From: Trichococcus palustris
Lineage (GTDB): Bacteria; Bacillota; Bacilli; Lactobacillales; Aerococcaceae
Assembly: GCF_900114465.1 (NCBI RefSeq)
Contig: NZ_FOTD01000015.1
Location: forward strand, 1-64,000
Length of the DNA: 64,000 bases
Reading direction: 5' to 3'
How positions within the stretch are numbered: the stretch's first letter is position 1; each line of letters starts with the position of its first letter. Position numbers and translations under genes: made by a program. Shown here piece after piece: positions 22,874-55,828 of the stretch. The notes beneath the pieces are model-generated. The model was given only the letters and a program-made list of their open reading frames with translations, ran no database searches and was not told the DNA's origin.

Positions 22874-23044
22874 CCTATTCCCTAACGATTGATCATAAAC
22901 GAAAATGCTCGCACTCTGCCTAAACGTGTTCTGATTCGCAGACACCACTTCCGTTTCGAAACCGGCTTTCGTCCACAAAAGAGGTAAACGAAAAGTCGGT
23001 TTCTCCAACGTCCGGGTGTCTAAACGCGATTCATCGCACTCTTC
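22874..23044 (-). repeat. Repeat family C, copy 1
   Basis: Read on the minus strand, it starts AAGAGTGCGA next to the lplA stop. Its central hairpin is AGACACC...GGTGTCT with the inner stem AACCG(A)CTTTTCGT/ACGAAAG(C)CGGTT. GAACACGTTTA, GAGTGCGA and a GATCAATCGTTAG tail follow, and the terminator is at 22837-22873. Flanks match family B, but the hairpin is unrelated in sequence. A second copy lies inside 56910-57100. Confidence 0.72.
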
Positions 23045-32913: not shown

Positions 32914-32948
32914 AAAAACCCCTCATTCCCTATATAGTCATTTCAAGA

Positions 32949-33260
32949 AAAGCGGTCCAAGCCCGCCCTGCCTCGACAGAAATTTAAAGGACGCAACGCT
33001 CCTTGCAGTCGCCTTGTACTGGTAGTCTAAGGAATGAATTCCTAAGACTACCACGCAAATGAGCAAACCGCGCAATTGCTGAGAGACTTCCTGCGTCAGC
33101 AGGTTAGTCGAACAGTATGTCTTGGCTCATAGAGCCAAGAGGTTCCTTCATCTTTCGTTTCCGAGAGGCAGGCTTGGACCGCTAGACATCATGTTGTGGC
33201 GTGAAACTAATTAGGAATCTGTTAAACACCAACAGTGATGTGCTTCTTATATCAAAAAAA
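32949..33260 (+). ncRNA. Repeat family A, copy 1 (structured RNA candidate, long form without early module)
   Basis: The closing stem is AGCGGTCCAAGC (32951-32962) with GCTTGGACCGCT (33172-33183), 12 perfect pairs. It continues with CTGCCTC (32968-32974) and GAGGCAG (33165-33171). The central hairpin GGTAGTCT...AGACTACC is at 33021-33052 and CTTGGCTC/GAGCCAAG at about 33121-33139. The 3' tail is GCTAGACATCATG...TGGCGTG. The pairings are kept with different bases in other copies. It lies between the amidohydrolase gene and thrS, antisense to both. Confidence 0.72.
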
Positions 33261-33292
33261 TTATGCTTCCTAGCTATAAACAAAAAAAGCCC

Positions 33293-33314
33293 GGGACATA
33301 TAAAGCAATGTCCC
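33293..33314 (-). terminator. Terminator of thrS
   Basis: GGGACAT pairs with ATGTCCC. On the minus strand it is followed by CGGGCTTTTTTTG. It lies about 90 bp past the thrS stop, adjacent to repeat A copy 1. Confidence 0.75.
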
Positions 33315-33403
33315 AGACCTCTTTCGAGCAAACAGGATTCAGTCTACATTACCTGAAGGTTATTGTATCATGATTCGCCTGCGTAGATGTGGATTTGATA
33401 AGA

Positions 33404-35338
33404 TTATTTGAAGTTTTTGATTTCATCTTGCACAGACGCGAAGAACTCTTCAACGGTAACTGTGTTTGTTTCTTTGGATCCGTAGCGTCGGATGGTTACT
33501 GTGCCGTTTTCCAATTCTTGATCCCCGATAACTAATTGATACGGGATTTTTTGCGTTTGTGAAGCACGGATTTTGTAACCCATTTTTTCATTGCGGTCAT
33601 CAACGTCGATGCGCATGCCCAGCTGTTCCATTTTGTTTTTCAATTCGTAGGCTTTATCGGCATGCATATCCAAGTTTACGGGGATGATCGTTGCTTGAAC
33701 AGGGGCCAACCAAACCGGGAAAGCGCCTTTGTATTCTTCAATCAAGTAAGCCACGAAACGTTCCATCGTCGAAATGACTCCGCGGTGGATAACGACCGGA
33801 CGGTGGTTGTTTTCGCCGTCTTCCCCGACATAAGTCAGGTCAAAGCGTTCCGGCAACAGAAAGTCCAACTGGATGGTGGACATCGTTTCTTCGATACCCA
33901 AGGCAGTCTTGAATTGCACGTCCAGTTTAGGGCCGTAGAAAGCCGCTTCGCCGATGGCTTCAAAATATTCCAGACCGAATTCGTCCATCGCTTCTTTCAG
34001 CATCGCTTCAGCTTTGTTCCACATGTTGTCATCGTCATAGTATTTCACTTTGTCTTCAGGGTCGCGGTAGCTCAGACGGAAACGGTAATCCGTGATTTTG
34101 AAATCTTTATAGACATCCATGACCAATTGCAGGACGCGTTTGAATTCATCTTTGATCTGGTCCGGGCGCACAAAAACGTGGGCATCGTTCAACGTCATTT
34201 CGCGGACGCGTTGCAGGCCGGACAAGGCGCCGCTCTTTTCATAGCGGTGCATCATGCCCAATTCGGCAATGCGGATCGGCAATTCGCGGTAGCTGTGGAT
34301 ATCATTTTTGTAGACCATCATATGGTGCGGGCAGTTCATCGGGCGCAATACCAACATTTCGCCGTCGCCCATGTCCATCGGCGGGAACATATCATCATGG
34401 TAGTGATCCCAGTGACCGGATGTCTTGTACAGTTCCACATTCGCCATGATCGGCGTGTAGACGTGTTGATAACCCAAACTCACTTCTTTGTCGACGATAT
34501 AGCGTTCCAATGTGCGGCGGATGGTTGCGCCTTTCGGCAACCAGAACGGCAAGCCGGAACCGACTTCAGGGGCGATCATGAACAGATCCAATTCTTTCCC
34601 TAATTTGCGGTGGTCGCGTTCTTTCGCTTCTTCGCGCATTTTGATGAATTCAGCCAAGGCTTTTTTGTCGAAGAACGCAGTTCCGTAGACGCGTTGCATC
34701 ATTTTGTTGTTTGAATTCCCGCGCCAGTATGCGCCGGCAAGAGATAATAATTTGAAGACTTGGATTTTTCCGGTCGACGGCACGTGGATGCCGCGGCATA
34801 GGTCGGTGAAATCTTCTTGCGTGTAGACGGTGATGGTTTCGTTCTCCGGCAGAGCTGTGATCAACTCGACTTTGTAAGGATCGCTTGCGAACAAGGCCAA
34901 TGCTTCTTCACGGCTCACTTCGCGGCGGACGATCGGATAGTTCGCTTTGACGATGTTCATCATTTCAGCTTCGACTTTCGGAAGGTCCTCTTCGGAAAGC
35001 TGCACTTCCATGTCGGTGTCATAGTAGAAGCCTGATTCGATTGCCGGGCCCACACCGAAGTGGATGCCGGGGAACAGGCGCGTCAAGGCATGTGCCATCA
35101 AATGGGCAGTCGAATGGCGCAGGATATAAAGGGCATCTTCGTGATCCGGCGTTACGATTTCAAGGACACCGTCCATTTCCAATGGGCGGGTGAAGTCGAC
35201 CAACTCACCGTTGAATTTTCCGGCCAAGGCTTTCTTGGCCAGGCTGTTGCTGATGCTTTTTGCTACTTCTTCCACGGTTACGCCGGCAGCGAATGCTTTT
35301 ACGGCGCCATCAGGGAAAGTGATTTTGATTTCTGACAT
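33404..35338 (-). CDS. thrS: Threonyl-tRNA synthetase
   Basis: A 644-residue class II synthetase with an N-terminal TGS domain (1-62), the editing/SAD domain ([11 protein letters not shown] and [12 protein letters not shown]), the catalytic core ([20 protein letters not shown], motif 3 near the C-terminal side) and an anticodon-binding domain from about 535. GGAGGAATCAGC precedes the ATG. Expression is controlled by the T-box leader at 35410-35655. Confidence 0.98.
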
Positions 35339-35409
35339 GCTGATTCCTCCAATTTTTTTATGTGGCTCCTCCGCTAGGGAGTGCCGCTGGGTTTTGACAA
35401 AAAAGATAC

Positions 35410-35655
35410 AAAAAAAAGCCCATTTCCAGCCTTAGCCGGAAATGGGACGTGTCTACGTGGTTCCACCCAAATTCAAGAGTGCTACAAAAACCCGTTAAGA
35501 TCCCTGTCTCATTCTCACTTGAACGCGATAACGAGCGTACCGTTTCCCCCTACTTCAAGTTCAGGGAATCTCTCGAAAGTGGTCAATAAATAAGTGATTG
35601 AGATGTCGCACCAACCCATCCCTCGCTAAAAATCAGTTTATTTAAAGGTATCTTT
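35410..35655 (-). promoter_or_regulatory. T-box leader of thrS
   Basis: On the minus strand a structured leader carries the T-box core GGGTGGAACCACG (plus 35456-35468). A terminator CCCATTTCC...GGAAATGGG (35419-35446) and a T run follow. Uncharged tRNA-Thr would stabilise the alternative antiterminator. The AGAGA-containing Stem I region lies around 35560-35580; I could not assign the specifier codon with certainty. The 35656-35739 stretch holds only promoter-like AT-rich sequence. Confidence 0.92.
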
Positions 35656-35739
35656 CTCATCGATTTTGCTATTCTTTCATCTGTATTCCATTTAAACACT
35701 AAAACGAATGGATTTCAAGCATTATTTCCGCTATCGCCC

Positions 35740-36669
35740 TTAACTTTCGAAACGGCGATTTTTCCCTTTGATCGCGACTTCCCTTGCCAGGAAACGGATG
35801 CGTTCCATCAATCGTTTCGCCTTGATCGGTTCGTCATCACCCCTGTTGCCCATGCGGAAATGCTCTTCGAGCTCATTCAGCGTGAAATTCGAACTGAAGA
35901 AGGTCGGCAAATCCTCCTGCATCCGGTATTGCAGGATTACACCCAACACTTCATCGCGGATCCAGGTTGAGTTCGCTTCCGCCCCGATATCATCCAGCAT
36001 CAGGACTTCCGTTTTTTTGACGGCATCGATTTTTTCATTCACCGTATTGCTTTGGATGGCCTGTTTCATTTCCATGGTGAAGGTCGGATAATGCATCAGT
36101 GTCGTCACATGGCCGGTCAACGCCAATTCATGCGCGATGGCTCCCAAGAGATAGGATTTCCCTACACCGAACGGCCCGACGAAATACAGCGCCTGGTGAT
36201 GCGCCTTCGGGTTCTCGTTGTACTGGTCTATGAAATTCAGCGATTCCAAAATCGCGGACATCCGTTCATTCGATTGGACAAAGTCTTTGAAGGTCGCATT
36301 CCGCACGTCTTTCGGCATGGACATGGAATGGATGCGGCTCCTCAATTCCTTCTCCTTCACTTTCGCCAAGGTTTCTGCAGTCGGTGTGTAAACAACATCG
36401 ATGTAGCCGGCGTTCAAGGCCAGATGCGGTTCATAGCCGGGATTCTGCGATTCCTTGCCCGCCTTTATTTTTTCCTTTTCCTGCACGTATTCGTACAGCT
36501 TCGAATAGCTTTTATCGACGATTTCCTGTGTCAGCTTGTCTTGATGTTCCTGAAAGAAATGCTGTACATCGCCGTCCTCCATGATCATGGCGATCATCGC
36601 TTTGTAGCGTTGGCTGATCTCAGGATTGTTCATATATTTACTGAAAGCTCTGCCGATGGGTTCCATCAT
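35740..36669 (-). CDS. dnaI: Primosomal helicase loader DnaI
   Basis: A 309-residue AAA+ protein that loads the replicative helicase DnaC. The N-terminal helicase-binding region (1-120) is followed by the ATPase with Walker A GPFGVGKSYLLG and Walker B VLMLDDIGAE, and a sensor-type arginine near the C-terminus. The start overlaps the dnaB stop by 4 bp (translational coupling). B. subtilis has the same dnaB-dnaI pair. Confidence 0.93.
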   Translation of the reverse strand: MMEPIGRAFSKYMNNPEISQRYKAMIAMIMEDGDVQHFFQEHQDKLTQEIVDKSYSKLYEYVQEKEKIKAGKESQNPGYEPHLALNAGYIDVVYTPTAETLAKVKEKELRSRIHSMSMPKDVRNATFKDFVQSNERMSAILESLNFIDQYNENPKAHHQALYFVGPFGVGKSYLLGAIAHELALTGHVTTLMHYPTFTMEMKQAIQSNTVNEKIDAVKKTEVLMLDDIGAEANSTWIRDEVLGVILQYRMQEDLPTFFSSNFTLNELEEHFRMGNRGDDEPIKAKRLMERIRFLAREVAIKGKNRRFES

Positions 36670-38099
36670 TCATCCCCTGCCTTTCCGCTACTTCTCAATT
36701 TCTTGATGCGTTCATTTATTTTCTTTTGCGCTTCCTCAGACAACGGCGTTTCCAAATGGATTTTGCTGTCCGCCTGAGCCCAATCCGGCAAAGTCTCTTT
36801 CTTACGGATGACCGGATTGCCGTAATTCTTCGCGATGGTGCGATTCGTTGCACGCTTTTCGGCCTTTGCTTTTATTTCACCGGCAAATTGCTTCGCCTTC
36901 GCCAACGCCTGCTCCGGCGTGTTGACTCCGGCCTGCAGCCAATCGCTCGCGATGGAATCCACGAAGTTCTTTGCCAAGTTAGGGCGATTCTGAATGACCA
37001 ATACATAGTGGACCAAAATATTCAAAACAGCCGGTGTGATGGCAGCCTGTTGCATCAAATCATTCAAAATCTGCTTCTCCCCGCTTGTGACGATGCCGCC
37101 TTTCTGTTTCTTGATGCTCTTCAGAAAGAAATGCGGCGGCAACTGTTCGCTGGCTTGGATCAAGGCAATCTCATTTTTTGAATAGTGGGACTGCTGCAGA
37201 TCTTTCACCCGCACATCGGCTTTACCGCGTGCATCTTCGATTGTTTCTGCCACCTTGTCCTTGACCTGCAGACGCGTCTGGAATTTTTGTTCGTACGCGG
37301 AAGAAACAATCTTTTGCAACGCCTGGCCATCCACCTTGCCCGTTTCGATATCGGCAGCCTGCAGGACAAATTGGGACATCTGCATTTCATCGCATCCATA
37401 CAGCGTATGCAGGACCGTGATGGTATGCTCCAATTCTTTCGTGATCGAATCTTGGCTGACGAATTGTTTGTTCAACAATTGATGAAAAAAAGTGAAATCG
37501 AACGTCCTGCCGTCAATAGCAGGCGCCGTCCGATTGTCGTTTTCAATCAAATCACCCGCACGCTGTTTCAGGCCGCTCCGTTCCGTAAATGAACGTTCCG
37601 AGAAGGAATAGACATCCAGGAAGGATTTGGTGATTTCCTCCGCCTTTCCTTTGTCCACCTTCTGGCTGCTGAAGCGTTCCTGCAGGGAAAGATATTTCCG
37701 TTCCCCTACCTTTTCGTACAGCAGCAGGCTCATCAAGTCATCATGGAAGAAATCAAAACTGGAAAGGGGCGATTGTACTTCATAGATGTACTGCTTCCCC
37801 GGTTCATGGAGCAGATAAGTCTTCAGCAGGCCGATGCCTTCCAGTCTCACCCGTGCCTGATAAAATTCAGGGATACCGATGTTCAATAAGGCCAGCAGTT
37901 CTGAATGAAGCAGGCCGGGGCTCCAATGTTTTTCAGGATCCACTTCCGTCAAGAGCGTCATATAGAGGCTATAGGCCGTGGAGCCAATGATCGGCTGATA
38001 CAAAAAGGTCACTATTTTACGATGAACATCAGAAACCAGGCTATTTTGGCGGACCACAAAGGGGTCTTTCGGGCTTAAACTTTGCCAAGGATAACTCAT
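36666..38099 (-). CDS. dnaB: Replication initiation and membrane attachment protein DnaB
   Basis: A 477-residue DnaB/DnaD family helicase co-loader (not the E. coli-type helicase). The N-terminal winged-helix region (about 1-120) and two DnaB_2 (DnaD-like) domains (roughly 180-420) are followed by a basic C-terminal tail. It helps load the helicase at oriC and at restart sites. It overlaps nrdR and dnaI by 4 bp each, so nrdR-dnaB-dnaI form one unit. Confidence 0.9.
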
Positions 38100-38620
38100 T
38101 CACCGTCTTCCTTTCCTTCGCTCGTTTGCTTCGGAAGTTCATCTGCTGGCGTCGCAGGCGGACGAGCCGTTTTCCGTTCCATGTTTTCCAATTCCTCCAG
38201 GAAGGTTTTCCGGTCCGAAAATTGACGGTATACGCTCGCAAAGCGAATGTAGGCCACATCATCGATTTTGGCGAGTTTATCCATGACATGCTCCCCGATT
38301 ACGATGCTGGAAACCTCATTTTCGCCGAGGGCACGAATCTCTGCTTCCACTTCATTTACGACATTCTCCAATTGCTCCAAAGCGATCGGCCTCTTCTCGC
38401 TGGATCTGATCAACCCGCGCAATAATTTCTCGCGGCTGAATTCTTCGCGGGTTCCATTTTTCTTGATGACAAGCAGCGGGGTCTGTTCGATTCTTTCGAA
38501 TGTGGTGAACCGGAAATGACATCTTTCGCATTCTCTTCTGCGGCGAATGGCCTTCCCCTCATCAGCTGGACGGCTGTCCACTACGCGAGAACCATGATAT
38601 TGACATTTCGGACATTGCAT
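38096..38620 (-). CDS. nrdR: Transcriptional repressor NrdR
   Basis: A 174-residue repressor of ribonucleotide reductase genes. It has an N-terminal zinc ribbon (C3-x2-C6 and C31-x2-C34 in CERCHFRF) and an ATP-cone (about 49-139) that senses dATP/ATP. The C-terminal tail is longer than the minimum of the family and low in complexity. It precedes dnaB as in B. subtilis. Confidence 0.95.
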
Positions 38621-38677
38621 CTGAGCTCCCCCTTTTCAAACGATTTTTATTATTCATTATAGCATAACCAAAGCCCA

Positions 38678-38709
38678 AAAGCCTTGAAAATATGGCTTTT
38701 GGGCTTTTT
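38678..38709 (-). terminator. Terminator-like hairpin between coaE and nrdR
   Basis: AAAGCCCAAAAGCC pairs with GGCTTTTGGGCTTT around a short AT-rich loop, followed on the plus side by TTTT. On the minus strand it lies just past coaE and ahead of nrdR, so it may separate the two transcripts. Confidence 0.65.
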
Positions 38710-38714
38710 TGAGA

Positions 38715-39314
38715 CTAGATAAATTTGTTTTCGATCAACCAATTTTGCAATTGTCGTTCGGTATCCTCCGGCGTCCCCGAATTGTCGATGACGAAATCTC
38801 CGCGTTTCTTTTTCTCTTCGATCGACAGTTGGCTCCTGATCCGTTGGCGGGCTTCCGTTTCCGTCAAATGGTCACGGGCCATCAACCGTTGCAATTGGAT
38901 TGCTTCCGGCACATAGACGACCATAACGCCATCGCACTCGGTTTGGTAACCCGCCTCGAACAACAGCGGGATATCCAGGACAATCAATGCGTGGCCTTCT
39001 GATGCCCGCTTTCCCATTTCTGAGTGGATCCACTCACGGATATGATTTTTCATCAAACGATCCAACAGGGTGCGTTTTTCTTTGTGCGCGAAGATGACTG
39101 ACCCTAACTTTTTCCTGTCGAGGGAACCATCCGCCAAGAGGAATTCCGCGCCGAAATGCGCCACGATATCGGCCAATCCCGGCGTACCGGGTTCAACCAC
39201 CGCTCGCGCCCCCAAATCGGCATCCACAACCGGAAATCCGGCAGCCGAGAAACTTTTTGAAACGCTGGATTTTCCGGTGGCGATGCTTCCCGTCAGGCCT
39301 AAAATATAACTCAT
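38715..39314 (-). CDS. coaE: Dephospho-CoA kinase
   Basis: A 199-residue P-loop kinase catalysing the last step of CoA synthesis. The Walker A is GLTGSIATGKSSV (6-18), with DADLGARAVVEPG and the LID-type RDHLTETEARQRI. It follows mutM by about 10 bp and ends near a 3' hairpin (AAAAGCC...GGCTTTT, 38678-38709). Confidence 0.94.
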   Translation of the reverse strand: MSYILGLTGSIATGKSSVSKSFSAAGFPVVDADLGARAVVEPGTPGLADIVAHFGAEFLLADGSLDRKKLGSVIFAHKEKRTLLDRLMKNHIREWIHSEMGKRASEGHALIVLDIPLLFEAGYQTECDGVMVVYVPEAIQLQRLMARDHLTETEARQRIRSQLSIEEKKKRGDFVIDNSGTPEDTERQLQNWLIENKFI

Positions 39315-39324
39315 GTGGCACTCA

Positions 39325-40161
39325 TCACGCTTTCTTCATTTTTTGACAATGCGGGCAATAGTGCGTGCCCCTTTGTGCCACCCTGATTTTTTCGATCGGG
39401 TGGCCGCAGCGGGGGCAGGGTTTTCCGGTTTGCCCGTACACGGCAAGGGAGACCTGGAATTTCCCGGCTTCACCCAGCGTGTTTTTGTACGTCCGGATTG
39501 TCGATCCGCCCGCTTCAACCGCACGACCGATTACATCGATGATGGCATCGCGCAATCGTTTCGCTGCAGCCGGTCCGATGGTGTTCGCCGGCTGCAAAGG
39601 ATTTATCTTCGCTTGGAACAGCGATTCATCGGCATAGATGTTCCCGACTCCCGCCACAATATTTTGATCGAGGATGACCGCCTTGATGACCCGGCTTGAT
39701 TTGGAAAGATCTTTCCGGAACTCATTCAGTTTAAAGAAGTCGGCAACCGGCTCCGGCCCCATTTTTTTGAAGGGCTCATATTCCTCGCGTTTGTCGATCG
39801 GCAGCAAGGTGAAGCGGCCGAATTTGCGGACATCCAAATAGCGCAGTTGGCGGCCGTCCGCCAAATAAAAAATGACGTGGGTATGCTTTTGGATCGGATC
39901 ACCGGAATGATTGACTTCATACTTCCCTTCCATGCGCAGGTGGGAAACCATCGCCCAATGGTCCAGCAGGAAAATCAAATACTTCCCGCGTCTTTCAACC
40001 GTGTGGATTGTTTCGCCGCGCAAGGCTTTCTTGAATTTTCCCGTTGAAAAAGGCGGTGTGATCATGCGGTCCCAAAAAACGGCGACGTCAATGATGACAG
40101 CTCCCGTTATCAACTGATTCAGTCCTTTTCTGATTGTTTCAACTTCAGGCAATTCAGGCAT
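39325..40161 (-). CDS. mutM: Formamidopyrimidine-DNA glycosylase
   Basis: A 278-residue DNA repair glycosylase/AP lyase removing 8-oxoguanine. The mature N-terminus PELPEVE (catalytic Pro2, Glu3), the helix-two-turn-helix region with QNIVAGVGNIYADE and the C-terminal zinc finger (CPRCGHPIEKI...CPHCQ) are complete. It follows polA in transcription order; repeat A copy 2 lies in the intervening space. Confidence 0.97.
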   Translation of the reverse strand: MPELPEVETIRKGLNQLITGAVIIDVAVFWDRMITPPFSTGKFKKALRGETIHTVERRGKYLIFLLDHWAMVSHLRMEGKYEVNHSGDPIQKHTHVIFYLADGRQLRYLDVRKFGRFTLLPIDKREEYEPFKKMGPEPVADFFKLNEFRKDLSKSSRVIKAVILDQNIVAGVGNIYADESLFQAKINPLQPANTIGPAAAKRLRDAIIDVIGRAVEAGGSTIRTYKNTLGEAGKFQVSLAVYGQTGKPCPRCGHPIEKIRVAQRGTHYCPHCQKMKKA

Positions 40162-40181
40162 AGGATCATCCCCTTTCTAAT

Positions 40182-40463
40182 AAAAGCGGAACAAGTCCGC
40201 CCAGACCTTGGTAAGGAAACACTGTGACCTAGACGGTCAAGTGTATCATGCCTCTAAGCGATTGAAATCGTAAGAGTCATGACAATTTAGGAAATCGTAA
40301 AGGTGGCAACGCTCCTTGCAGTCGCCTTGTACTGGTAGTCTAAGGAATGAATTCCTAAGACTACCATGCAAATGAGCATCGCAGAGCGCAATGGGTACGA
40401 TTTATCTAATTTCCGAAGGTCTGACTTGTGTAGCTAGACATCATTTGATAGCGTAAGACAGTT
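40182..40463 (+). ncRNA. Repeat family A, copy 2 (short form with module)
   Basis: Closing pairs are ACAAGT (40191-40196) with ACTTGT (40424-40429) and CAGACCT (40202-40208) with AGGTCTG (40417-40423). A second long-range stem is AAATCGTA/TACGATTT (about 40291-40299 with 40396-40403). The module hairpin TCATG...CATGA is at 40246-40272 and the central hairpin TGGTAGTCT...AGACTACCA at 40333-40365. It fills the whole space between mutM and polA, ending at the polA stop codon, antisense to both. Confidence 0.75.
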
Positions 40464-43113: not shown

Positions 43114-43134
43114 TCCCTAACATCCTAACTCTGT

Positions 43135-43668: not shown

Positions 43669-43689
43669 TTTCTCTATTCCTTTCTTTGA

Positions 43690-44686: not shown

Positions 44687-44783
44687 CACATATATTCCTA
44701 TCATAACAAAAACGCGGGTGTGATAAAAGTCGTTTAGCTCCGGAATATCCGAACCTTCCCCGAATAATAGCCAAAATGCGAGA

Positions 44784-45257
44784 AAAGCTGAACGGGTTCG
44801 TTCAGCCCTGAGTGATGAAACACTGTGACCTGAACGGTCAAGTGTATCATGCCTCTAAGCGATTGAAATCGCAAGAGTCATGACAATTTAGGAAATCTGT
44901 CCGGTAGTAACGCTCCTTGCAGTCGCCTTGTACTGGTAGTCTAAGGAATGAATTCCTAAGACTACCATGCAAATGAGCATCGCAGAGCGCAATTGCTGAG
45001 AGACTTCCAAAAACAAAGGAATCAACGTGACCGTGCCGGCCAGTTGTATCATGTTTCTAAGCCATCGAAGATGGCAAGAACCATGACAAGTCGAACAGTA
45101 TGTCTTGGCTCGCAGAGACAAGAGGTTCCTTCATCCCTTTTCCGAAGGGCTAACCCGTGAAGCTAGCCAACTATTTTGATGCGTGGAACATTTTGCAAAT
45201 CCTTGAAACACTTGCGGTGATGCATTTTTACAATCAAAAAACTTTATACTTTCCTTT
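44784..45257 (+). ncRNA. Repeat family A, copy 3 (long form, two modules)
   Basis: Closing pairs are ACGGGTT (44792-44798) with AACCCGT (45152-45158) and AGCCCT (44804-44809) with AGGGCT (45146-45151). Module hairpin 1 is at 44847-44883 (TCATG, CTCT, GCGAT / ATCGC, AGAG, CATGA). Module hairpin 2 is at 45049-45086 (TCATG, TTCT, GCCATC / GATGGC, AGAA, CATGA), so the pairs changed together. The central hairpin is at 44934-44967. Module 2 replaces the TGCGTCAGCAGGTTA segment found at this place in copies 1 and 5. The element lies between the deleted-tnpB element and a VanZ-like gene. Confidence 0.78.
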
Positions 45258-45267
45258 TAGTTAAAAA

Positions 45268-45297
45268 ATCCGCCGAAGCGTTCTCGGCGGATTTTCC
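45268..45297 (-). terminator. Terminator past the VanZ-like gene
   Basis: AATCCGCCGA pairs with TCGGCGGATT, with A/T runs on both sides. It lies directly after the VanZ-like gene on the minus strand and after repeat A copy 3 on the plus strand, so it could serve both. Confidence 0.8.
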
Positions 45298-45312
45298 CTT
45301 CTCTGTCGTTTT

Positions 45313-45939: not shown

Positions 45940-46008
45940 CAGATTAGCCTGTCATGCCTTCATCAAACGGATTTCACAGCAAAACCGACACTCTGTTTGT
46001 AACTAAAC

Positions 46009-46054
46009 GGAGGGTGGAACAACAATCATTTCCATGATTGCTGCCCCACCCTCC
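46009..46054 (-). terminator. Terminator of murC
   Basis: GGAGGGTGG pairs with CCACCCTCC, with an inner CAATCAT/ATGATTG stem. It lies just past the murC stop codon. Confidence 0.75.
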
Positions 46055-46068
46055 CGGATATAATCGGA

Positions 46069-47400: not shown

Positions 47401-47680
47401 AATTACCTCCAAATATAATAAGGGAAGAATGCCGAACAGCCTTCTATCCCTTTAGTGTATGTTTTTCTCTGTGGACCACATACCTTTATTCCTGAAAAAC
47501 ACAAAATCCACTCTTTTGCGGGTCGGTATTTTCCATAGATGCCGAAGAATCGAAGATAGTATACCATCCCCAGATTAAGAAGCTGACATGAATGGGTTAA
47601 ACTTTGGTGTCAAACATTTCAAAGATTGCAGTTTCGTTAATGATGACGCATCGCTGCACTCGAACATGTCAAAAGTATGT

Positions 47681-48388
47681 CTAAAAATACGATTGGCCGG
47701 CCGATTGTGATTCTCCAGCCGCTTCTTGCGTAAACTTATCGGATACATCAAAAGAACGCTCCTGCGCCATGATGCCCAATAAGGAACGGTTCATCGCCCG
47801 CTTCGTTTTTCCGTGAAGGGGATGGAGCCCATTCCCTTCACGGCTGGTTTCATCCTCATAAGCATCGTCATCTTCTGAAACGGATGCATCAAACAAAAGC
47901 AGATCCTCATCCGGCTTCACCAAAAGATCGGCGATATAGCCATAATCGATTTTACTTTCTGTTTTGCTGGTCCACCCTTTCAACGGTTCAGGGATCTCCG
48001 TCAACTGGAACGGCCGTCTGCTTCTATAATGCGCATAAGGATGCATATCCGATTGGCTGCGGCGTTCCTTGAGTTTCTCATCCTGCAGGTGTTTCTTTTT
48101 TACAGCAAATACATCTTCGGTCGGAACGGCTTCCTTGTCCCGATAAGAAATGAACGCCTCCTTATTATGGCGCAGGAAAGGCACCGTGTCGGCGGGGGTG
48201 TGCATCAAATCATTGGAAATGTAGGGGGAAGGTTGCACAGAATAGTCTGTTTCTTGCTGAATGGCTGCCCTTTTTTCCTGATTTTCCAAATAGTTCGGAA
48301 AATGTATTCTCTTGATTGAATGGTGATTTCCATGTGCAGAAGACCGGGAATCGTGTTCGGAAAAAACAGGTCCCTCATAGCGGCTCAT
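47681..48388 (-). CDS. Unknown hydrophilic protein in the sftA slot
   Basis: A 235-residue protein rich in charged residues and Ser, with no membrane segment and no Walker motifs. AGAGGAGGGG before the ATG at 48388 is a strong ribosome binding site. By synteny (ytpR before, murC after) this is the place of the FtsK-like DNA translocase SftA in Bacilli. The protein resembles a disordered N-terminal region rather than a whole enzyme, so it may be what remains after loss of the motor. The 280-bp gap to murC shows no trace of a motor domain. I do not recognise the protein itself. Confidence 0.6.
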   Translation of the reverse strand: MSRYEGPVFSEHDSRSSAHGNHHSIKRIHFPNYLENQEKRAAIQQETDYSVQPSPYISNDLMHTPADTVPFLRHNKEAFISYRDKEAVPTEDVFAVKKKHLQDEKLKERRSQSDMHPYAHYRSRRPFQLTEIPEPLKGWTSKTESKIDYGYIADLLVKPDEDLLLFDASVSEDDDAYEDETSREGNGLHPLHGKTKRAMNRSLLGIMAQERSFDVSDKFTQEAAGESQSAGQSYF

Positions 48389-48495
48389 CCAATCCCCTCC
48401 TCTCATTTCTATTTTTCATTTCGGTAAAACGCAGGTTTTTAGTTTTGAAATTTCCTTTATAATAGTACTTCTTTTTTGACCAAATTTCCATAGCA

Positions 48496-49110
48496 TTATT
48501 TGAAAAATGCTGAACCCACCACATAGCTGTCATCCAATACAAGGATGCCCTTTTTAGCGGCAGCATTTTCTAATCCCAATTCTTTTGCGGAACAGATCAT
48601 GCCATTGCTTGCGACACCGCGCAATGCGCCCGGCCAGATGATCAGGCCGCTCGGCATAACCGCACCAGGCTTCGCAACGACGACGCGTTGTCCTTTTTTG
48701 ATGTTCGCTGCACCACAGACGATCTGCAACACTTCGCCGTTGTCGACTTCCGTTTGCGTAACGGACAGGTGGTCAGAATCTTCGTGAGGCACGCACTCTT
48801 TCACATAGCCCACAACGAATTTAGGCGAATGGTCGACGGCAACCAAATCGGTAAAGCCGGCTGCTTTGATCAGATCATTCACTTTCACAAGCTGTTCATC
48901 CGTCAAAAATACTTGGCCGTTTGCGGTCAAATCCACGCTCTCGGAAATAGCGAAGAGGTTATAGCCCATCGTTTCATTCGTTGCGCTGTTGTAGATGCGC
49001 GTAACCGTGCCCTTTGATTCGCAGGCTTGTTCCTGTCTTACAGCGATGTCCCCTTTTGTCAAAAGTAATGTATCCCCTACTGCTTTACGATTATAAAAAC
49101 TTAACCACAT
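48496..49110 (-). CDS. ytpR: YtpR family tRNA-binding domain protein
   Basis: A 204-residue protein with an N-terminal DUF4479-like region (1-90) and a C-terminal EMAP/tRNA-binding OB domain (about 95-200; VGYVKECVPHEDSDHLSVTQ, VCGAANIKKGQRVVVAKPGA). It resembles the N-terminal part of the PheT beta subunit. The cellular role is not established. AGAAGGAGC precedes the ATG. It follows the thioredoxin-like gene, the ytpP-ytpR order. Confidence 0.88.
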   Translation of the reverse strand: MWLSFYNRKAVGDTLLLTKGDIAVRQEQACESKGTVTRIYNSATNETMGYNLFAISESVDLTANGQVFLTDEQLVKVNDLIKAAGFTDLVAVDHSPKFVVGYVKECVPHEDSDHLSVTQTEVDNGEVLQIVCGAANIKKGQRVVVAKPGAVMPSGLIIWPGALRGVASNGMICSAKELGLENAAAKKGILVLDDSYVVGSAFFK

Positions 49111-49157
49111 GTCTGTTTTTGCTCCTTCTATACGTTCTCTGTTATTTTTATTATTAA

Positions 49158-49472
49158 TTATTTGGCACCTTCAAAAAAGGCTTCGATTTCTTCTTGCGTC
49201 TTGTGATCCTTTGAAACGAAACGCCCGATTTCTTGCCCTTTGTCATACACGATGAAGCTCGGGATACCCAACACATCCAACGATCGGCAGAGATCGATGA
49301 AGTCGTCGCGGTCCACTTCGACAAACCGGTAATCGCCGAACTTCGCTTCCACTTCGGGCATGAATGGTTTGATGAAGTGGCAATCAGGACACCAGGTGGT
49401 CGTAAAGACAAAAGCCGTTTTTCCCGCATCGCGTAAAGCGTAAAACTGTTCTGCATTCTGCAATTTTTCCAT
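49158..49472 (-). CDS. Thioredoxin-like protein (YtpP type)
   Basis: A 104-residue thioredoxin-fold protein with the active-site W-C-P-D-C near residue 33 and the cis-proline segment LGIPSFIVYD. The CPDC variant differs from the classical CGPC. GAGGGGTG seven bases before the ATG at 49472 decides the start; the longer frame upstream is the antisense of the neighbour's 3' region. It belongs to the M42-thioredoxin-ytpR run. Confidence 0.88.
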   Translation of the reverse strand: MEKLQNAEQFYALRDAGKTAFVFTTTWCPDCHFIKPFMPEVEAKFGDYRFVEVDRDDFIDLCRSLDVLGIPSFIVYDKGQEIGRFVSKDHKTQEEIEAFFEGAK

Positions 49473-49500
49473 TTTTGGACACCCCTCAGCTTTTCTCGGC

Positions 49501-50577
49501 TCAGTTATTGGCCATGATTGTTTCGTATGTACTCTTGTCCAATGACTTGATGACCTGCGCCACCATCTCTTTTGCGGCAGCATAATCATCGATATGGAAC
49601 ATCGTTTGGTGCGTATGGATGTAGCGTGCGCACACGCCGATGACGGCACTCGGTACCCCATCGTTCATCACATGCGCCGCACCCGCATCGGTACCGCCTT
49701 TTGATACAAAATATTGGTACGGAATATGGTGCGTTTCCGCAGTATCCAACAGGAATTCGCGCATGCCCTTCAAGGTGATCATCCCCGGATCTTGGATGCG
49801 CAACAGGAAGCCTTCGCCCAGATGGCCGAACGTATCCTTGGTGGTCGTCAAATCATCCGCTGCGGAACAGTCGACGGCAAAGAACAAGTCAGGCTTGAAT
49901 TTATGGACCGCGCCTTTGGTCCCGCGCAAGCCGACTTCCTCCTGCACATTGGCTCCGGCAATCAACGTATTCGGCAACTTTTCATCTTTCAGAGCTTCCA
50001 ACGTTTCCAGTACGACGGCATTCCCGTAACGGTTATCCCACGCTTTTGAAATGATTTTCTTTTTGTTGGCCGTCCAGATCGTTTCCACCTGCGGGACGAT
50101 GGTATCGCCGGGGCGAACACCAAAGGCAAGGGCCTCTTCCTTCGAATCGAAGCCCGCATCAAAGAGGATGTCGGCTACCTTCACCTGCTGTGCAGCCGCT
50201 GCATCGCGCAACAAATGCGGCGGAACCGAAGAGGAGATGACGGGGATATCCCCTTTTGCAGTCTGCAGGGTGAAACGCTGTGCCGAGACCACGTAGGGAT
50301 TCCAGCCGCCTAAAGGCACTACCCGGAACAAGCCCCTGTCGGTGATGCCGGTAAGCATGAATCCGACTTCATCCATGTGGGCCGCAACCATGATGCGCGG
50401 AGCCGTAGCATCCGCATTTTCACGGATCCCAAAAATGCCGCCAAGCCCATCCATTTCAATGCGGTCAACCAATGGCTCCATTTTTTCGCGCATGACATTG
50501 CGGACATTCCTTTCATTTCCGCTTGTTCCTTGTAATTCGGTCAATTCCTTGATTAAAGCAAATGTTTTATCTTCCAT
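49501..50577 (-). CDS. M42 family metallo-aminopeptidase (third paralogue, YtoP type)
   Basis: A 358-residue di-zinc aminopeptidase with [45 protein letters not shown] and THQTMFHIDD. By position (next to a ytzB-like gene, thioredoxin and ytpR) it corresponds to ytoP of B. subtilis. The start at 50577 is chosen from alignment with the paralogue at 26790 (MEDKTFALIKELTELQG); the ribosome binding site is weak, and a longer form from 50628 is possible. Confidence 0.87.
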   Translation of the reverse strand: MEDKTFALIKELTELQGTSGNERNVRNVMREKMEPLVDRIEMDGLGGIFGIRENADATAPRIMVAAHMDEVGFMLTGITDRGLFRVVPLGGWNPYVVSAQRFTLQTAKGDIPVISSSVPPHLLRDAAAAQQVKVADILFDAGFDSKEEALAFGVRPGDTIVPQVETIWTANKKKIISKAWDNRYGNAVVLETLEALKDEKLPNTLIAGANVQEEVGLRGTKGAVHKFKPDLFFAVDCSAADDLTTTKDTFGHLGEGFLLRIQDPGMITLKGMREFLLDTAETHHIPYQYFVSKGGTDAGAAHVMNDGVPSAVIGVCARYIHTHQTMFHIDDYAAAKEMVAQVIKSLDKSTYETIMANN

Positions 50578-50846
50578 CCATGAACGGGACACGGTCGCCG
50601 AGGAAATAGTTCCCCTTATCACGGTCAACCTGCCCCCGATCCCCCTTCGTTGAAAAGCTATCCTTACTATTATAGCGTAGCCTTATTGTCAGGGCAACGT
50701 TTCAATTGCATTTCGCCGTTTTATCCACGATGGATCATTCCCGCCCGAAATGTATAGGTTTACATTTCCCTATGCTTTCAAAGTAATTATTGTTATACTT
50801 AATTGTGAATAATAAAGAAAGCGCATCAATTTGAGGAGGCTTTACG

Positions 50847-51197
50847 ATGAACTTTTTAGAAAAACGAAAATGCGAAAAGAACAAGGAAGAGATTTTGGGT
50901 GGCATCTTATTTGGCGCAGGTATCGTCATTGGTTCAATTATCACGGCACTGTGCTACGAGAAGAAAAGAATGGTGAACGGCGATACCATTTTGGAAAATG
51001 TCAAAAAAATGTTTTTGGCGGAAGCGCCGATCGAAGGTTCCTGGATTGAGTTGCATCCCGTACCGCTCAACCGCTACTCTTCTGAGACGGATGTCTACTA
51101 CGGAGGAATTTCCCGCAAGGAAGATGGCGTATTGGTCCAATACGAATTCATCGCAGATGCCTATACCGGAACCGTACTGGATTTATACAAATTATAA
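50847..51197 (+). CDS. YtzB-like small membrane-anchored PepSY-type protein
   Basis: A 116-residue protein. One membrane segment (about 17-38, ILGGILFGAGIVIGSIITAL) is followed by a short soluble domain with a PepSY-like pattern (YYGGISRKEDGVLVQYEFIADAYTG). GAGGAGG precedes the ATG. PepSY domains often sit beside peptidases and may restrain them; here the divergent neighbour is an M42 peptidase. The 270-bp divergent gap contains a TATACT (50794-50799) as a possible -10. Confidence 0.65.
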   Translation: MNFLEKRKCEKNKEEILGGILFGAGIVIGSIITALCYEKKRMVNGDTILENVKKMFLAEAPIEGSWIELHPVPLNRYSSETDVYYGGISRKEDGVLVQYEFIADAYTGTVLDLYKL

Positions 51198-51204
51198 ACA
51201 AAAA

Positions 51205-51243
51205 AAGAAGAATCAAAAATCACGCTGATTTTTGATTCTTCTT
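51205..51243 (+). terminator. Terminator of ytzB-like gene
   Basis: AAGAAGAATCAAAAATCA pairs perfectly with TGATTTTTGATTCTTCTT around CGC, followed by TTTTT. Confidence 0.9.
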
Positions 51244-51277
51244 TTTTGGCTAAGTAAATATAATTTTTTATATAAGA

Positions 51278-51525
51278 AGCGCATCATTACAGGTGTTCCA
51301 CAAATTACTAATCTGCTTAACGCCATCACATGATGTCTAGCTGCACAAGTCAGACCTTCGGAAATTAGATAAATCGTACCCATTGCGCTCTACGATGCTC
51401 ATTTGCATGGGGCTCTTAGGGATTCATCCCTTAGAGCCCCAGTATAAGGTGAGCGTAGGGAAAGTTGCGGGGCACGATTTCCTAAATTTCTGTCAGGTCT
51501 GGGCGGACTTGTTCCGCTTTTCTTA
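51278..51525 (-). ncRNA. Repeat family A, copy 4 (short form without module)
   Basis: Read on the minus strand. Closing pairs (plus coordinates) are ACAAGT 51345-51350 with ACTTGT 51507-51512 and CAGACCT 51351-51357 with AGGTCTG 51495-51501. The central hairpin GGGGCTCT...AGAGCCCC is at 51409-51440, against GGTAGTCT...AGACTACC in copies 1-3. The module is absent: AATTTAGGAAATCG follows GACAGA directly. It lies between the convergent ytzB-like gene and trmB, the only copy in this orientation. Confidence 0.75.
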
Positions 51526-51530
51526 TTTCG

Positions 51531-52178
51531 TTACGCTTTTTTAGGGAAGGCGGCTTCCACACGGTAAATGCGTGATCCGCGCGAAGAGAATTTCTCTTCG
51601 TATTCGGTCATGACGTTCCCCTCGAAGTCGCTGTTGTGCAAGTCCAACCATACTTCGAGCAAAGTCATGCCATATTGCGAGAAGCTCGCAAGGGAATACT
51701 CGAACAGGCCTTGGTTGTCCGTCTTGAAGTGGATTTCTCCACCGGCTACCAGGATTTGCTCGTAATTCTTCAAAAAATTTGCATGCGTCAGCCTGCGTTT
51801 GTCATGTTTCGATTTCGGCCATGGATCCGAGAAGTTCAGATAGACACGGTCAACTTCCCCATCGGCGAAGAAATCAGCCACATTCTCCCCATCCGTATTC
51901 AGCAATTGCACATTCGGCAAATCGGCTTCCACAATTTTATCCAATGCCATAACGGCAACACTCGTTTGGCGTTCTATCCCGATATAGTTGATTTCAGGGT
52001 GCATCTTTGCCATCCCGACGATGAATTGGCCTTTTCCGGATCCGATTTCCACATGGATCGGGTGGTCATTCCCAAAACGTTCTTCCCATTTCCCCTTCCA
52101 TTCGGCCGGTTCCATCACAACATAACGGGTACTTTCAGCTAATTTTTCAGCTGCCCAAGGTTTATTTCTAACGCGCAT
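51531..52178 (-). CDS. trmB: tRNA (guanine-N7)-methyltransferase
   Basis: A 215-residue SAM-dependent enzyme making m7G46 in tRNA. The SAM loop is [12 protein letters not shown] (about 41-52), with [11 protein letters not shown] and the catalytic [16 protein letters not shown] block. AGAGGTAG precedes the ATG. It lies 78 bp after the YtmP-like kinase gene, as in B. subtilis. Confidence 0.96.
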
Positions 52179-52256
52179 AGTCTACCTCTTTCATAAATTA
52201 CATATTTTTTCATAAAAAGAAATCCTTTCCGTTCGCATAGGTGACGAAGAGGATTT

Positions 52257-53054
52257 CTATAGGTCTTGATTGCTCCGATTTTGATAAAGCTCTTGCAGCA
52301 GAAGAAGCGTTTGGTTCATTTCCAGCTCGCGCCCTTGCAGACGATTTTTTTTGATCATGAGCAGGCAATTCATCAGGCTGTACCATTCCAGTCTGCGGGA
52401 AATGTCGTCCGTCATGTGCAGACCGTATTCTTCCAGCCAACCGTTCCAATCTTCCAATGCCACATATTGGGTCAGAAGCATACTGATATCGGAAAGGGGA
52501 TCGGCTATCTTGACCATTTCCCAGTCCACCAGATACAGCCGTTCGGCGTTATCCAACAGGAAATTTTTGCGATTGACGTCGCCATGGCAAACCGTCTTGG
52601 GCGCAGCGGTGATGCTCGCTGCGGTAGCTCTCACATATTGAACCGCATGCTGCAGGAGCGGATGCGACTTCAAGTCTTCCGGCAAATCTTTTATGTACAG
52701 ATTGAGGAAGTTTATCGGATTGTAAACTTCGCCCTTCACTTTTTGAAGCATATTGAACAGATTTTCGGATTGATGAATCCGATGCAAAATGTCAATGACC
52801 GCTTTCCCCTTCATTTCGCCCGGTTTCAGTTCCCGGCCGTTCAGCCACTCTTGAGCCGTCAAGATGTCCCCGTTTCCGACCCGTTTTGTCCAGATCAGTT
52901 TCGGCGTTATCCCTTCAACGGAGAGCGCAGCTAAAAAAGGAGAAGAATTGCGTTTCAAAAAAACTTTTTCATCTGCTCTTGTGCCCATATAAGCTTGTCC
53001 TGTATCTCCTCCAATGGGGTGTAACCGCCATCCCGAGTCCATTTTATAATCCAT
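52257..53054 (-). CDS. Choline/aminoglycoside kinase-like phosphotransferase (YtmP type)
   Basis: A 265-residue small-molecule kinase fold protein. The catalytic loop is VCHGDVNRKNFLLD (near 160-173) and the metal-binding Asp is in LYLVDWEMVKIADPL. The substrate is unknown. AAGGA nine bases before the ATG at 53054 favours it over an ATG 9 bp upstream. It pairs with trmB as ytmP does with ytmQ. Confidence 0.85.
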   Translation of the reverse strand: MDYKMDSGWRLHPIGGDTGQAYMGTRADEKVFLKRNSSPFLAALSVEGITPKLIWTKRVGNGDILTAQEWLNGRELKPGEMKGKAVIDILHRIHQSENLFNMLQKVKGEVYNPINFLNLYIKDLPEDLKSHPLLQHAVQYVRATAASITAAPKTVCHGDVNRKNFLLDNAERLYLVDWEMVKIADPLSDISMLLTQYVALEDWNGWLEEYGLHMTDDISRRLEWYSLMNCLLMIKKNRLQGRELEMNQTLLLLQELYQNRSNQDL

Positions 53055-53107
53055 CGAGCTCATTCCTTACTCAGTCTCTAGTTTTACTGTCCATTTATTC
53101 CTTCCCA

Positions 53108-53141
53108 TGAAAAGAAGGAGCCGGGACGAAAGCCCCAGCTG
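53108..53141 (-). terminator. Probable terminator of the ecs operon
   Basis: On the minus strand AGCTGGGGC pairs imperfectly with GTCCCGGCT around TTTC, followed by CCTTCTTTTC. It lies about 170 bp past the ecsB stop. The interval 53142-53312 shows nothing else I can name. Confidence 0.5.
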
Positions 53142-53312
53142 TCTATTTATTGTTCTATTCATCATTGCATGCTGCACATACACACAACCCTTTTCCGCCC
53201 AAAAAAAAAATTTGAAAGGAAGCTGCGTATATTCCACCCTTTATTTTAGGATGCTTTACATATCCAGTCAAGAATATTCGGCTATTCTTCGCCAAAACAT
53301 TCTCGATTATCC

Positions 53313-54545
53313 TTAGGAAAAGGTGTTTTCTCTTTTCGCTGTGCGGCTGCCCATATAAAAGCGGATGAAACACCAAACGAAGGCCAGATTGGCTGCCAAT
53401 GCGATCAAGCCGGCCATCCAATCGACTCCAACCGTGATGGCGAGCGCAAAAGCCACTGCCTCGCATCCCAGCAAATAGGTGATGATTTTTTTGAATCCAG
53501 CGAACTTATCGCCATTTGGAACAGGATACAGACGATTCATCATGTTCTCGTTATAGTGGAAATACAAGGGCATCAGCTGGAAGCCCGTCAAATAAAGAAA
53601 CAACAGACTCAGTGCCAAGGATAGGCTCTTCGCCGGGGTTGCCGCCAACAAGACCACCCCGATCAGCAAAAGCCTGACAAACAGACCGCTGTAATCCGTC
53701 CCCCTCATAAATGCCCGAGCATAGAGATATTGGAATGTATTCCCCTTGCCTTCCACTCGGCGCAGGATGCCGTCCAAATATTTCCTTCTTTTCGCTTTGT
53801 TCTTCACCTGAGGGACATCGGTAAAAAGATTGATGATCCGATTCACACGTGCCGTCCGCTGTTCTTCGGCGGCGGTTATGTTTTCCCATTGGTAGAGCGG
53901 ATATTTTGTCTCGAAACGTACTTGTACTTTTTTATGCAGAAGTACAGTATACAGCGTTACAAGAACAGGCGCAACCCACGGATTAAAAAATATGGAGATA
54001 CTGAACAATAAAACGCCAAAAATCCACAATAGCCCATTGTTTTTCTGGATAACCGCCCGATCGTTGCATTTCAACGCCAACACCTGAAGATCCAACTGGA
54101 TGGACTTCAATAAGAGCAGCGTCGCATAGATGGGCAGGAAATCGCTGATTTGGATCGTTCTCCCTGCAAATAACAGCGGCATTGCGGCGGCCCCAATAAA
54201 GAACAGGAGCACCGCCGGAAAAACCAGGCTGTAGCGTTTCGCTTTTTGGAAATACCCGCCCCATTCTTTTTCTTTCGCCAAAAGGAACACTTGATCGGCC
54301 GCTTCCACAAGCGTAGCCAGCTTGCCGATGAAAATGCTCAGGGAGAAAAGCAATACGATCAGCACCTCTCCCCAAACAAAATCCGGTGTCAGTGTCTTCA
54401 CGAATTCGGAATACCGGAACGCCAAAGCGCCGATCAGGAACAGGAGCACGATGACAAAGTGGTCGTTGAAAATATATTTGCTGTAGCGGCTGAATTTTTT
54501 CAGATGCAGTTGTTGTCTTCTTTTCCAGATGCTTTCCATTGTCAT
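53313..54545 (-). CDS. ecsB: ABC transporter permease EcsB
   Basis: A 410-residue integral membrane protein with about ten hydrophobic segments, a basic N-terminus and the EcsB-type central soluble loop. With EcsA it forms an exporter that in B. subtilis affects secretion, competence and regulated intramembrane proteolysis. The start overlaps the ecsA stop (ATGA), so translation is coupled. Confidence 0.86.
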   Translation of the reverse strand: MTMESIWKRRQQLHLKKFSRYSKYIFNDHFVIVLLFLIGALAFRYSEFVKTLTPDFVWGEVLIVLLFSLSIFIGKLATLVEAADQVFLLAKEKEWGGYFQKAKRYSLVFPAVLLFFIGAAAMPLLFAGRTIQISDFLPIYATLLLLKSIQLDLQVLALKCNDRAVIQKNNGLLWIFGVLLFSISIFFNPWVAPVLVTLYTVLLHKKVQVRFETKYPLYQWENITAAEEQRTARVNRIINLFTDVPQVKNKAKRRKYLDGILRRVEGKGNTFQYLYARAFMRGTDYSGLFVRLLLIGVVLLAATPAKSLSLALSLLFLYLTGFQLMPLYFHYNENMMNRLYPVPNGDKFAGFKKIITYLLGCEAVAFALAITVGVDWMAGLIALAANLAFVWCFIRFYMGSRTAKRENTFS

Positions 54546-55279
54546 GACGGCAACGCTTCTTTCGTCAAGCTGATGTACAGCTCATCCAGGCTTGCCCCGG
54601 GCATATTCATTTCCTTTTGCAGATCGGCCATCGTCCCCGTGACCTTCACTTCGCCATGATGGAGCAAGATGAAATTATCGCATTCCTTTTCCGCCGATGC
54701 CAGGACATGGGTGGACATCAAAATAGCCGCGCCCTGCTTTTTCTTCTCCTTGACCATCTCCAAAAAGGAATGGATCCCCAACGGGTCCAACCCCAGAAAC
54801 GGTTCATCGATCACGTACACGGGAGCATCCACCATGAAGGAACACACGATCATGACCTTTTGCTTCATCCCCTTGGAGAAGTAGGCCGGAAACCAATCCA
54901 GCTTATCCTCCAGACGGAATTCTTTGATGTAGCGCATCGCCTTTTCCATCGCTTCCGCTGCCGGAATATTGTAGGCCATTGCCGTAATTTCCAGATGTTC
55001 GCGCAACGTCAACTCCTCATATAAAACCGGCGTTTCCGGAATGAAAGAGAAGGAGCGGCGGTAGCGCTCCGTGTCCGCCCGCAACGTCAGGCCATCGATT
55101 GAAATCTCCCCGCTGTACGGCATCATCAAACCGATGATATGTTTGATGGTCGTGCTCTTTCCGGCACCATTCAATCCGATCAACCCGGTTAATTCGCCCG
55201 GGTTCACTTCAAAGGTGATATTGTTTATGACAGGCACTTGCGTATAGCCGCCTGTGACATTTTCTAGTTTTAGTGACAT
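54542..55279 (-). CDS. ecsA: ABC transporter ATP-binding protein EcsA
   Basis: A 245-residue ABC ATPase with Walker A GLNGAGKSTT (about 36-45), the signature-type FSKGMKQK, Walker B VYVIDEPFLGLD and the switch His in STHVLASAE. It is first in ecsA-ecsB and divergent from the HIT gene, as in other Bacilli. Repeat A copy 5 lies in the divergent gap. Confidence 0.92.
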   Translation of the reverse strand: MSLKLENVTGGYTQVPVINNITFEVNPGELTGLIGLNGAGKSTTIKHIIGLMMPYSGEISIDGLTLRADTERYRRSFSFIPETPVLYEELTLREHLEITAMAYNIPAAEAMEKAMRYIKEFRLEDKLDWFPAYFSKGMKQKVMIVCSFMVDAPVYVIDEPFLGLDPLGIHSFLEMVKEKKKQGAAILMSTHVLASAEKECDNFILLHHGEVKVTGTMADLQKEMNMPGASLDELYISLTKEALPS

Positions 55280-55405
55280 AGTAAAGTTCCTTTCCGCTTC
55301 CTTATGTGTATTATATTATAACATAGCCCGATGCTGAACCGTTTCGAATAGATTGTTTTTGAATAATATGAAAAATGGGCCAAATATGATAAAGTGAGTC
55401 TATGA

Positions 55406-55828
55406 GAAAAGCTGAACGGGTTCGTTCAGCCCTGTTTAAGGAAACACTGTGACCAAAAAGCGTTCAAGTGTATCATGTCTCTAAGCGATTGAAATCGCAA
55501 GAGCCATGACAATTTAGGAAATCGTGCCCTGCAACTTTCCCTACGGTCACCTTATACTGGGACTCTAAAGGATGAATCCCTAAGAGTCCCATGCAAATGA
55601 GCATCGCAGAGCGCAATTGCTGAGAGACTTCCTGCGTCAGCAGGTTAGTCGAACAGTATGTCTTGGCTCATAGAGCCAAGAGGTTCCTTCATCCCTTTTC
55701 CGAAGGGCTAACCCGTGAAGCTAGCCAATTTTTTTGATGCGTGGAACATTTTGCAAATCCGTGAAACACTTCCGGTGATGCGCTTTTACAATCAAAAAAA
55801 ATTTATACTTTCCTTTTAGTTAAAAAAT
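55406..55828 (+). ncRNA. Repeat family A, copy 5 (long form with one module)
   Basis: Closing pairs are ACGGGTT (55416-55422) with AACCCGT (55710-55716) and AGCCCT (55428-55433) with AGGGCT (55704-55709). The module hairpin TCATG...CATGA is at about 55473-55509. The central hairpin GGGACTCT...AGAGTCCC is at 55559-55590, a third sequence version of that stem. CTTGGCTC/GAGCCAAG is at 55660-55680. The 3' tail AATCAAAAAA...TTTATACTTTCC is shared with copy 3. It lies between divergent ecsA and the HIT gene. Confidence 0.78.

Follow-up and report, generated by a model that had tools for sequence, protein, structure and literature searches.

The BOX elements of Streptococcus pneumoniae and S. suis are described, in the passages of PMC3049150 that deal with them, as repeats of the form boxA-boxB(n)-boxC, and are reported there with terminal inverted repeats (TIRs) and target duplications. 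Modular repeats of the BOX type are long familiar from streptococci, whereas the mechanism that mobilises them is not known. Mixed hairpin modules beside gene ends also make up the mosaics of REP and BIME units associated with RAYT transposases, and among the large structured RNAs of bacteria, HEARO occurs in multiple copies. Here, the first 64,000 nucleotides of contig NZ_FOTD01000015.1 (assembly GCF_900114465.1) of Trichococcus palustris, referred to as the window, were analysed with respect to a family of large intergenic repeats, termed family A. Five copies, numbered 1 to 5 in window order, had been noted from the sequence alone, and all five are present, as confirmed by repeat grouping and alignment. 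Family A is modular and dispersed, its insertions differ between species, and its docking on terminator-like hairpins is polar. It looks like a new family, and BOX is the closest kind, judged by build, distribution and the uncertainty about the mobiliser. With a probability of roughly two in three, family A is a BOX-like, non-autonomous modular interspersed repeat that is mobilised in trans and becomes part of neighbouring untranslated regions (UTRs).

The dispersal that five copies in 64 kb seemed to imply is borne out by the host genome (G000), in which the longest copy of the window gives 71 BLAST matches at E ≤ 0.001 (best non-self E 1.1e-117). Merging matches less than 400 nt apart leaves 40 places, about seven of which are short single matches, mostly of one hairpin cassette (M1) alone. 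All 12 other Trichococcus genomes searched also match, or 13/13 with the host, as do 4/47 genomes outside the genus (17/60 overall), one of these (G045) by 34 nt only. The pattern of the conserved core cassette was found in 65 DNA stretches, 63 of them in assemblies named Trichococcus or in that of 'Sedimentibacter sp. SX930', which appears to be the same-genus genome G012; the remaining two lie in unrelated metagenome-assembled genomes and may be chance. When the core cassette was searched as a covariance model, G000 was the sole match among 299 genomes drawn from the class, which may or may not include other Trichococcus. Full elements are also present in two other genera of the order. G058, from another family of the order, repeats the architecture: its stems differ in sequence, the core-less junction CCTGAATGAGCA is identical, and M1 sits at another position. 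G023 holds one further full copy (L066). TATAAT-like motifs in the tails of G058 and G023 vary in their spacing, and the idea of a promoter at the tail was rejected. Phage and plasmid collections gave no family A match, and the exact core pattern occurs in 0 stretches of viral contigs.

From 5' to 3', the element consists of an AAAAGC hairpin, an arm, the optional M1, an inner arm, the optional core, a return half and an optional tail. The return half is either a short return or a mid module, optionally with a second hairpin cassette (M1b), and is followed by the return arm ending in GCTAG. The outer arms of the resulting rod are inverted repeats, and the tail runs about 95 nt beyond them and past the GCTAG motif, often ending against a terminator-like hairpin. 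The 5' end is flush (AAAAGC) in the copies listed, and tails are full or cut at varied points, often still abutting such a hairpin. The spacings are quantised: in 83 distinct copies, the distance from the 5' end to the core is mostly about 75, 145 or 202 nt, and that from the core to GCTAG mostly about 110, 172 or 237 nt. The same insertion at the site corresponding to window position 53085 is core-less in one relative (L061), has the core in a second (L063) and the core and M1 in a third (L059), so that the three differ by exactly these two cassettes. The whole core cassette is missing from many copies; where present, it holds long, almost invariant unpaired stretches. The M1 pattern was found in 12/395 genomes of the order, namely 10/11 Trichococcus, G023 and G036, with no match in the other Lactobacillales genera sampled, and within Trichococcus it is additionally found on its own behind stop codons and as part of other hairpin mosaics. 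In G023 (L066, L078), both M1-like hairpins lie in the 23S-5S rRNA spacer, directly before the 5S gene. Cassettes common to different repeat families and genera suggest that hairpin modules themselves travel.

Comparison of orthologous sites demonstrates that the family A element has moved. The sites of copies 2 and 5 are both empty in 7/7 relatives read, and elements that the window does not have at 53085 are present there in 5/7 relatives; at 52150-52260, an element is found in 1/7. The copy 4 site is empty in 2/7 relatives, and the others have a stub, a minimal or full element or other sequence. At this same site, G002 (L062) has related hairpin units (CCCGACAGATC...) arrayed over some 500 nt where other species have an element, a stub or nothing. 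Among six relatives at the 35700 site, three have a 5' hairpin stub only, two a full element beside the stub, and one the 5' half. In the two loci with the full element (L064, L065), the insertion adjoins a solitary copy of the element's 5' hairpin behind a stop codon, and on the other strand this solitary hairpin reads as a terminator-like hairpin, GCTGACGTTCAGC followed by TTTTC. Starting from relatives, an element of G007 directly behind a TAA has six empty orthologues and one deletion remnant (seven other loci read, of 13 fetched), and for one of G002, where 12 loci were fetched, seven orthologues among the others that were read are empty; loci whose junction is not shown, and which were therefore not read, are L224, L225, L231, L233, L236, L237, L238, L241 and L244. 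In a deletion remnant in G008 (L245), only the element's tail is left, joined to the end of the gene upstream. Since identity between related species amounts to about 71-80% in the stretches that align, the insertions read are not recent events. The simple miniature transposon (MITE) that the earlier note had listed as an alternative is thereby refined rather than excluded: empty sites and cassette turnover are those of a mobile repeat.

The insertions are placed with respect to stop codons and terminators. The 5' anchor is readable in 80 copies. An upstream open reading frame (ORF; our own greedy six-frame calls, not annotation) in the same direction is present in 51 of them, and in 38 of these 51 the element begins -2 to +13 nt from the ORF's stop codon, a count that includes false 5' anchors inside M1 (L001, L014, L015, L024). 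With one copy per site, and without these false anchors, the proportion is 35/41 sites. Where the L135 and L140 sites are empty, several species have a linker of no more than about 15-20 nt; the closeness of the 5' end to the stop codon may merely follow from insertion into a short linker. Neighbouring genes are convergent at 30 of 83 copies, both sense at 19, both antisense at 15 and divergent at seven, with one side unknown at 12; this count, the 38/51 and the following count of 70 copies include orthologous copies at one site. A terminator-like hairpin, detected by a finder that allows interrupted stems and with the false anchors left out, follows 46 of 70 copies, precedes 15 and is found far downstream of 15. 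For strong hairpins (dG ≤ -15), the polarity is sharper (39, 3 and 2), and it persists with one copy per site (32/60, 2/60 and 2/60). The following hairpin starts 91-118 nt past GCTAG in 29/46 cases, or 10-45 nt past it where the tail is cut (16/46). Its sequence varies from copy to copy and empty sites retain it, indicating that it belongs to the site and not to the element.

The conserved ability of family A to fold is well supported. Two minimal copies have fold z-scores of -9.4 and -6.4 (reverse complements -7.1 and -3.6), copy 3 of -6.8 (44783-45182) and copy 5 of -5.9. The closing (outer) arms are of the same type in 70/70 copies typed at both ends, 8/78 not being typable. In 33 rows, 96.3% of cells pair, compared to 22-50% with slid partners, and 19/46 pairs are changed on both sides, compared to 2-6. 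Among six haplotypes, an arm pairs best with its own partner in 4/6 by row and 5/6 by column, with a mean of -25.1 kcal/mol for own arms versus -16.4 otherwise; the arms of a decayed copy at 2388 fail this test both by row and by column. The three versions of the closing stem and the versions of the central hairpin can be read directly from the copies. The pairing retained between diverged arms, which had been pointed out earlier, is seen in the slid control, the arm-type match and the best-partner test. The covariation signal looks strong in RNAalifold and against the slid control; 5/26 core hairpins break the pair at columns 36-59. The raw count of paired changes is, however, largely explained by the arm versions being few linked haplotypes, so that one change is inherited by many copies. 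An alignment of joined arms contained false matches and was not used, nor was its filtered 18-row version; the two served only to point to the 2388 and L066 copies.

The unit is a long imperfect hairpin with paired outer arms and an optional tail, and optional hairpin cassettes are plugged into its rod at fixed positions. According to the trans-mobilised, BOX-like reading, an enzyme acting in trans would spread copies into short A-rich linkers, and cassettes would be swapped mainly through recombination between copies. A copy that follows a co-oriented gene would be co-transcribed as a structured 3' UTR, and the paired arms may be kept because the folded form, as RNA or as single-stranded DNA (ssDNA) during transposition, suits the mobilising machinery or host tolerance. 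Several results weigh against this reading. A tree-aware covariation test found no structural pair at E < 0.05 (best E 0.35 and 0.325), using a null of custom code, not R-scape, with low power (251 and 104 inferred changes). The run with E 0.35 used full-length copy 4 and left out row L044, which is not alignable in its 3' half, and most of its top pairs belong to the linked type I/II haplotype, whether paired or not. The minimum free energy structure of copy 5 favours a local 5' hairpin and leaves the outer stem unclosed; the centroid closes it. In a wider count, a terminator-like hairpin was found at 51/78 copies versus 27/111 random places, leaving 27/78 copies in which none was detected. 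No TIRs are seen at the outermost ends of family A, its inverted outer arms being followed by the tail where one exists, and no target duplication is visible; both are reported for BOX in PMC3049150, and none of three readable junctions (52150, 53085, L135) has a target duplication. No mobilising enzyme was found in searches for Y1 transposase and for reverse transcriptase (RVT_1): Y1 was not found in G036 and G058, both of which have related elements, and RVT_1, with matches in 8/14 genomes, had none in G000, G002, G003, G004, G005 and G036. Of the claim of the earlier note that compensatory change marks a selected RNA fold and not a DNA repeat, the pairing kept by the arms is supported; the opposition of RNA to DNA repeat is not supported as stated, because the closing-stem versions are linked haplotypes and the tree-aware test is not significant. 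Selection on family A as RNA is likely.

The first rival explanation is that family A is a functional regulatory or trans-acting RNA under host selection, for example a module for stability or processing of 3' UTRs, which just happens to be dispersed. Such a role would be consistent with the strong folding and matched arms, the near-invariant unpaired stretches of the core and the position right behind stop codons. The sense strand also folds better relative to shuffles (mean z -6.8 versus -5.9 antisense, lower in 43/60, the first 60 of 78 copies), and raw folding energy favours sense in 46/78 copies, a modest hint of strand. Yet insertions vary between species at the sites read, parts as large as the entire core cassette are missing from many copies, the flanking genes have no function in common, and between co-directional neighbours the element is sense in 19 and antisense in 15 of 83 copies. 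This explanation is unlikely.

The second is that of a REP- or PATE-like derivative moved as ssDNA by a Y1 transposase of the IS200/IS605 type, which would recognise the rod as its hairpin. The lack of a target duplication at the junctions read and the strand-specific fold would fit, and Y1 genes were found in 5/7 genomes searched, including 4/4 Trichococcus, with one in the window. The related elements of G036 and G058 nevertheless exist without a Y1 match, a family A match lies near 1/23 Y1 loci only and is an ordinary copy, and no ends common to family A and an autonomous Y1 element were seen in the 23 loci, so that this derivation, too, is improbable. The Y1 gene of the window, IS200-like, is at 5801-6211 on the minus strand, and its flanks in the fetched locus are without a family A or B match.

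A more far-reaching variant would be a mobile structured RNA residing in UTRs that is reverse-transcribed in trans and re-enters the linker between stop codon and terminator, its tail facing the terminator hairpin, while swapping cassettes with unrelated hairpin repeats. The swapping is suggested by M1 being common to family B, a second hairpin-repeat family described below, and located in the 23S-5S spacer of another genus; the variant as a whole is quite improbable. That family A is an RNA-borne retroelement, reverse-transcribed in trans and inserted in linkers so that one end (AAAAGC) is flush and the other, the tail, ragged, is very unlikely: the flush 5' end, the variously cut tails that often abut a terminator-like hairpin and the insertion beside the A-runs of terminators are in its favour, but the six genomes without an RVT_1 match include the host, tails may simply be deleted, and no group II domain was matched in Rfam in the window or the G058 loci.

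Affiliation with known structured RNAs, which the earlier note had wished to see excluded, finds no support. Rfam includes models for GOLLD, ROOL, HEARO and omega-RNA, and 0/4227 families reached the gathering score in the window and three G058 loci; an Rfam E-value search with copy 3 gave weak, chance-like matches only, and no transposon nuclease was found among ten flanking proteins searched. A literature search of openly licensed PMC papers found no description of family A either, in keeping with the earlier failure to recognise the family, and the main text of the Trichococcus genome paper (PMC6950789) does not contain the word 'repeat'.

Within the window, a repeat search groups the segments at 32985, 40298, 44899 and 55523 (81 nt, 72-96% identical), with which the minus-strand segment 51313-51488 pairs. 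The boundaries given here include the tail where one exists. Copy 1 (32948-33281, plus strand) has the 5' hairpin, core cassette, mid module, closing arm of type I and tail but lacks M1; it lies between genes for an M20 peptidase and a class II tRNA synthetase of the threonyl type, with a terminator-like hairpin on the convergent side from about 33282. Copy 2 (40182-40459, plus) combines M1 and the core cassette in the short form, with closing arm type III and the tail cut, between polA-like and Fpg/mutM-like genes. Copy 3 (44783-45267, plus), the longest in the window, comprises M1 (44808-44890, plus), the core cassette (44899-45008, plus), a conserved apical rod that carries the central hairpin, the mid module, in which M1b (45008-45089, plus) takes the place of a small hairpin, and the tail; a terminator-like hairpin follows at about 45268-45296. 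Copy 4 (51248-51521, minus) is of the short form, with core cassette, tail and a type III closing arm. It follows a methyltransferase gene, starting about 10 nt past its stop codon, and at its other end abuts a terminator-like hairpin at 51198-51247. Copy 5 (55407-55827, plus) has M1, core, mid module, closing arm type II and tail and is situated in the 5' leader of a gene of the HIT family. A sixth copy (2388-2503, plus), without core cassette, is the one with decayed arms, and a seventh lies on the same contig beyond the window (contig position 69456). The copies are intergenic and, as had been noted, no protein encoded by the element was found. Family B occurs at 2659-2821 (plus), 9863-10025 (minus), 22920-23048 (minus) and 56785-57125 (plus); each copy that was read is followed by a terminator-like hairpin, and one holds the M1 cassette of family A within its different hairpin mosaic (56981-57053, plus). 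Larger mosaics of family B-type hairpins are found at other Trichococcus loci.

Family A would thus be a second, unrelated-looking BOX-type family, present in dozens of copies in a non-pathogenic genus. Empty sites can be read in about a dozen sequenced species, and together with the sharp terminator polarity they make the insertion mechanism, the cassette exchange and the effect on 3' UTRs testable.

Among described systems, HEARO, GOLLD, ROOL and omega-RNA resemble family A as candidates for large structured non-coding RNAs of bacteria, and the Rfam and nuclease searches set it apart from them. Unlike REP and BIME units, family A is larger and has long-range paired arms, and no RAYT-like gene with these hairpins at its flanks was found. 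SPRITE and RUP of S. pneumoniae, as far as PMC3049150 describes them, are like family A dispersed, non-coding and enriched between convergent genes; SPRITE lies near gene ends and resembles a terminator. Both are much shorter and not modular, whereas the terminator of family A is that of the site. The likeness to BOX, as outlined in the same source, goes further: both are modular intergenic repeats of variable size in dozens of copies, with a predicted folded RNA and optional middle modules between fixed end modules, both are enriched between convergent genes and differ in size at orthologous sites, and for both the mobilising enzyme is uncertain. The sequence is different by the Rfam miss, BOX sequences themselves not having been compared. 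In BOX, the middle is a tandem boxB array, as this account has it, whereas the cassettes of family A are different hairpins plugged in at several places. M1 is moreover shared with another repeat family, and the tail is strongly docked on the terminator. It is this cassette sharing and terminator docking, together with the missing visible target duplication, that set family A apart from BOX.

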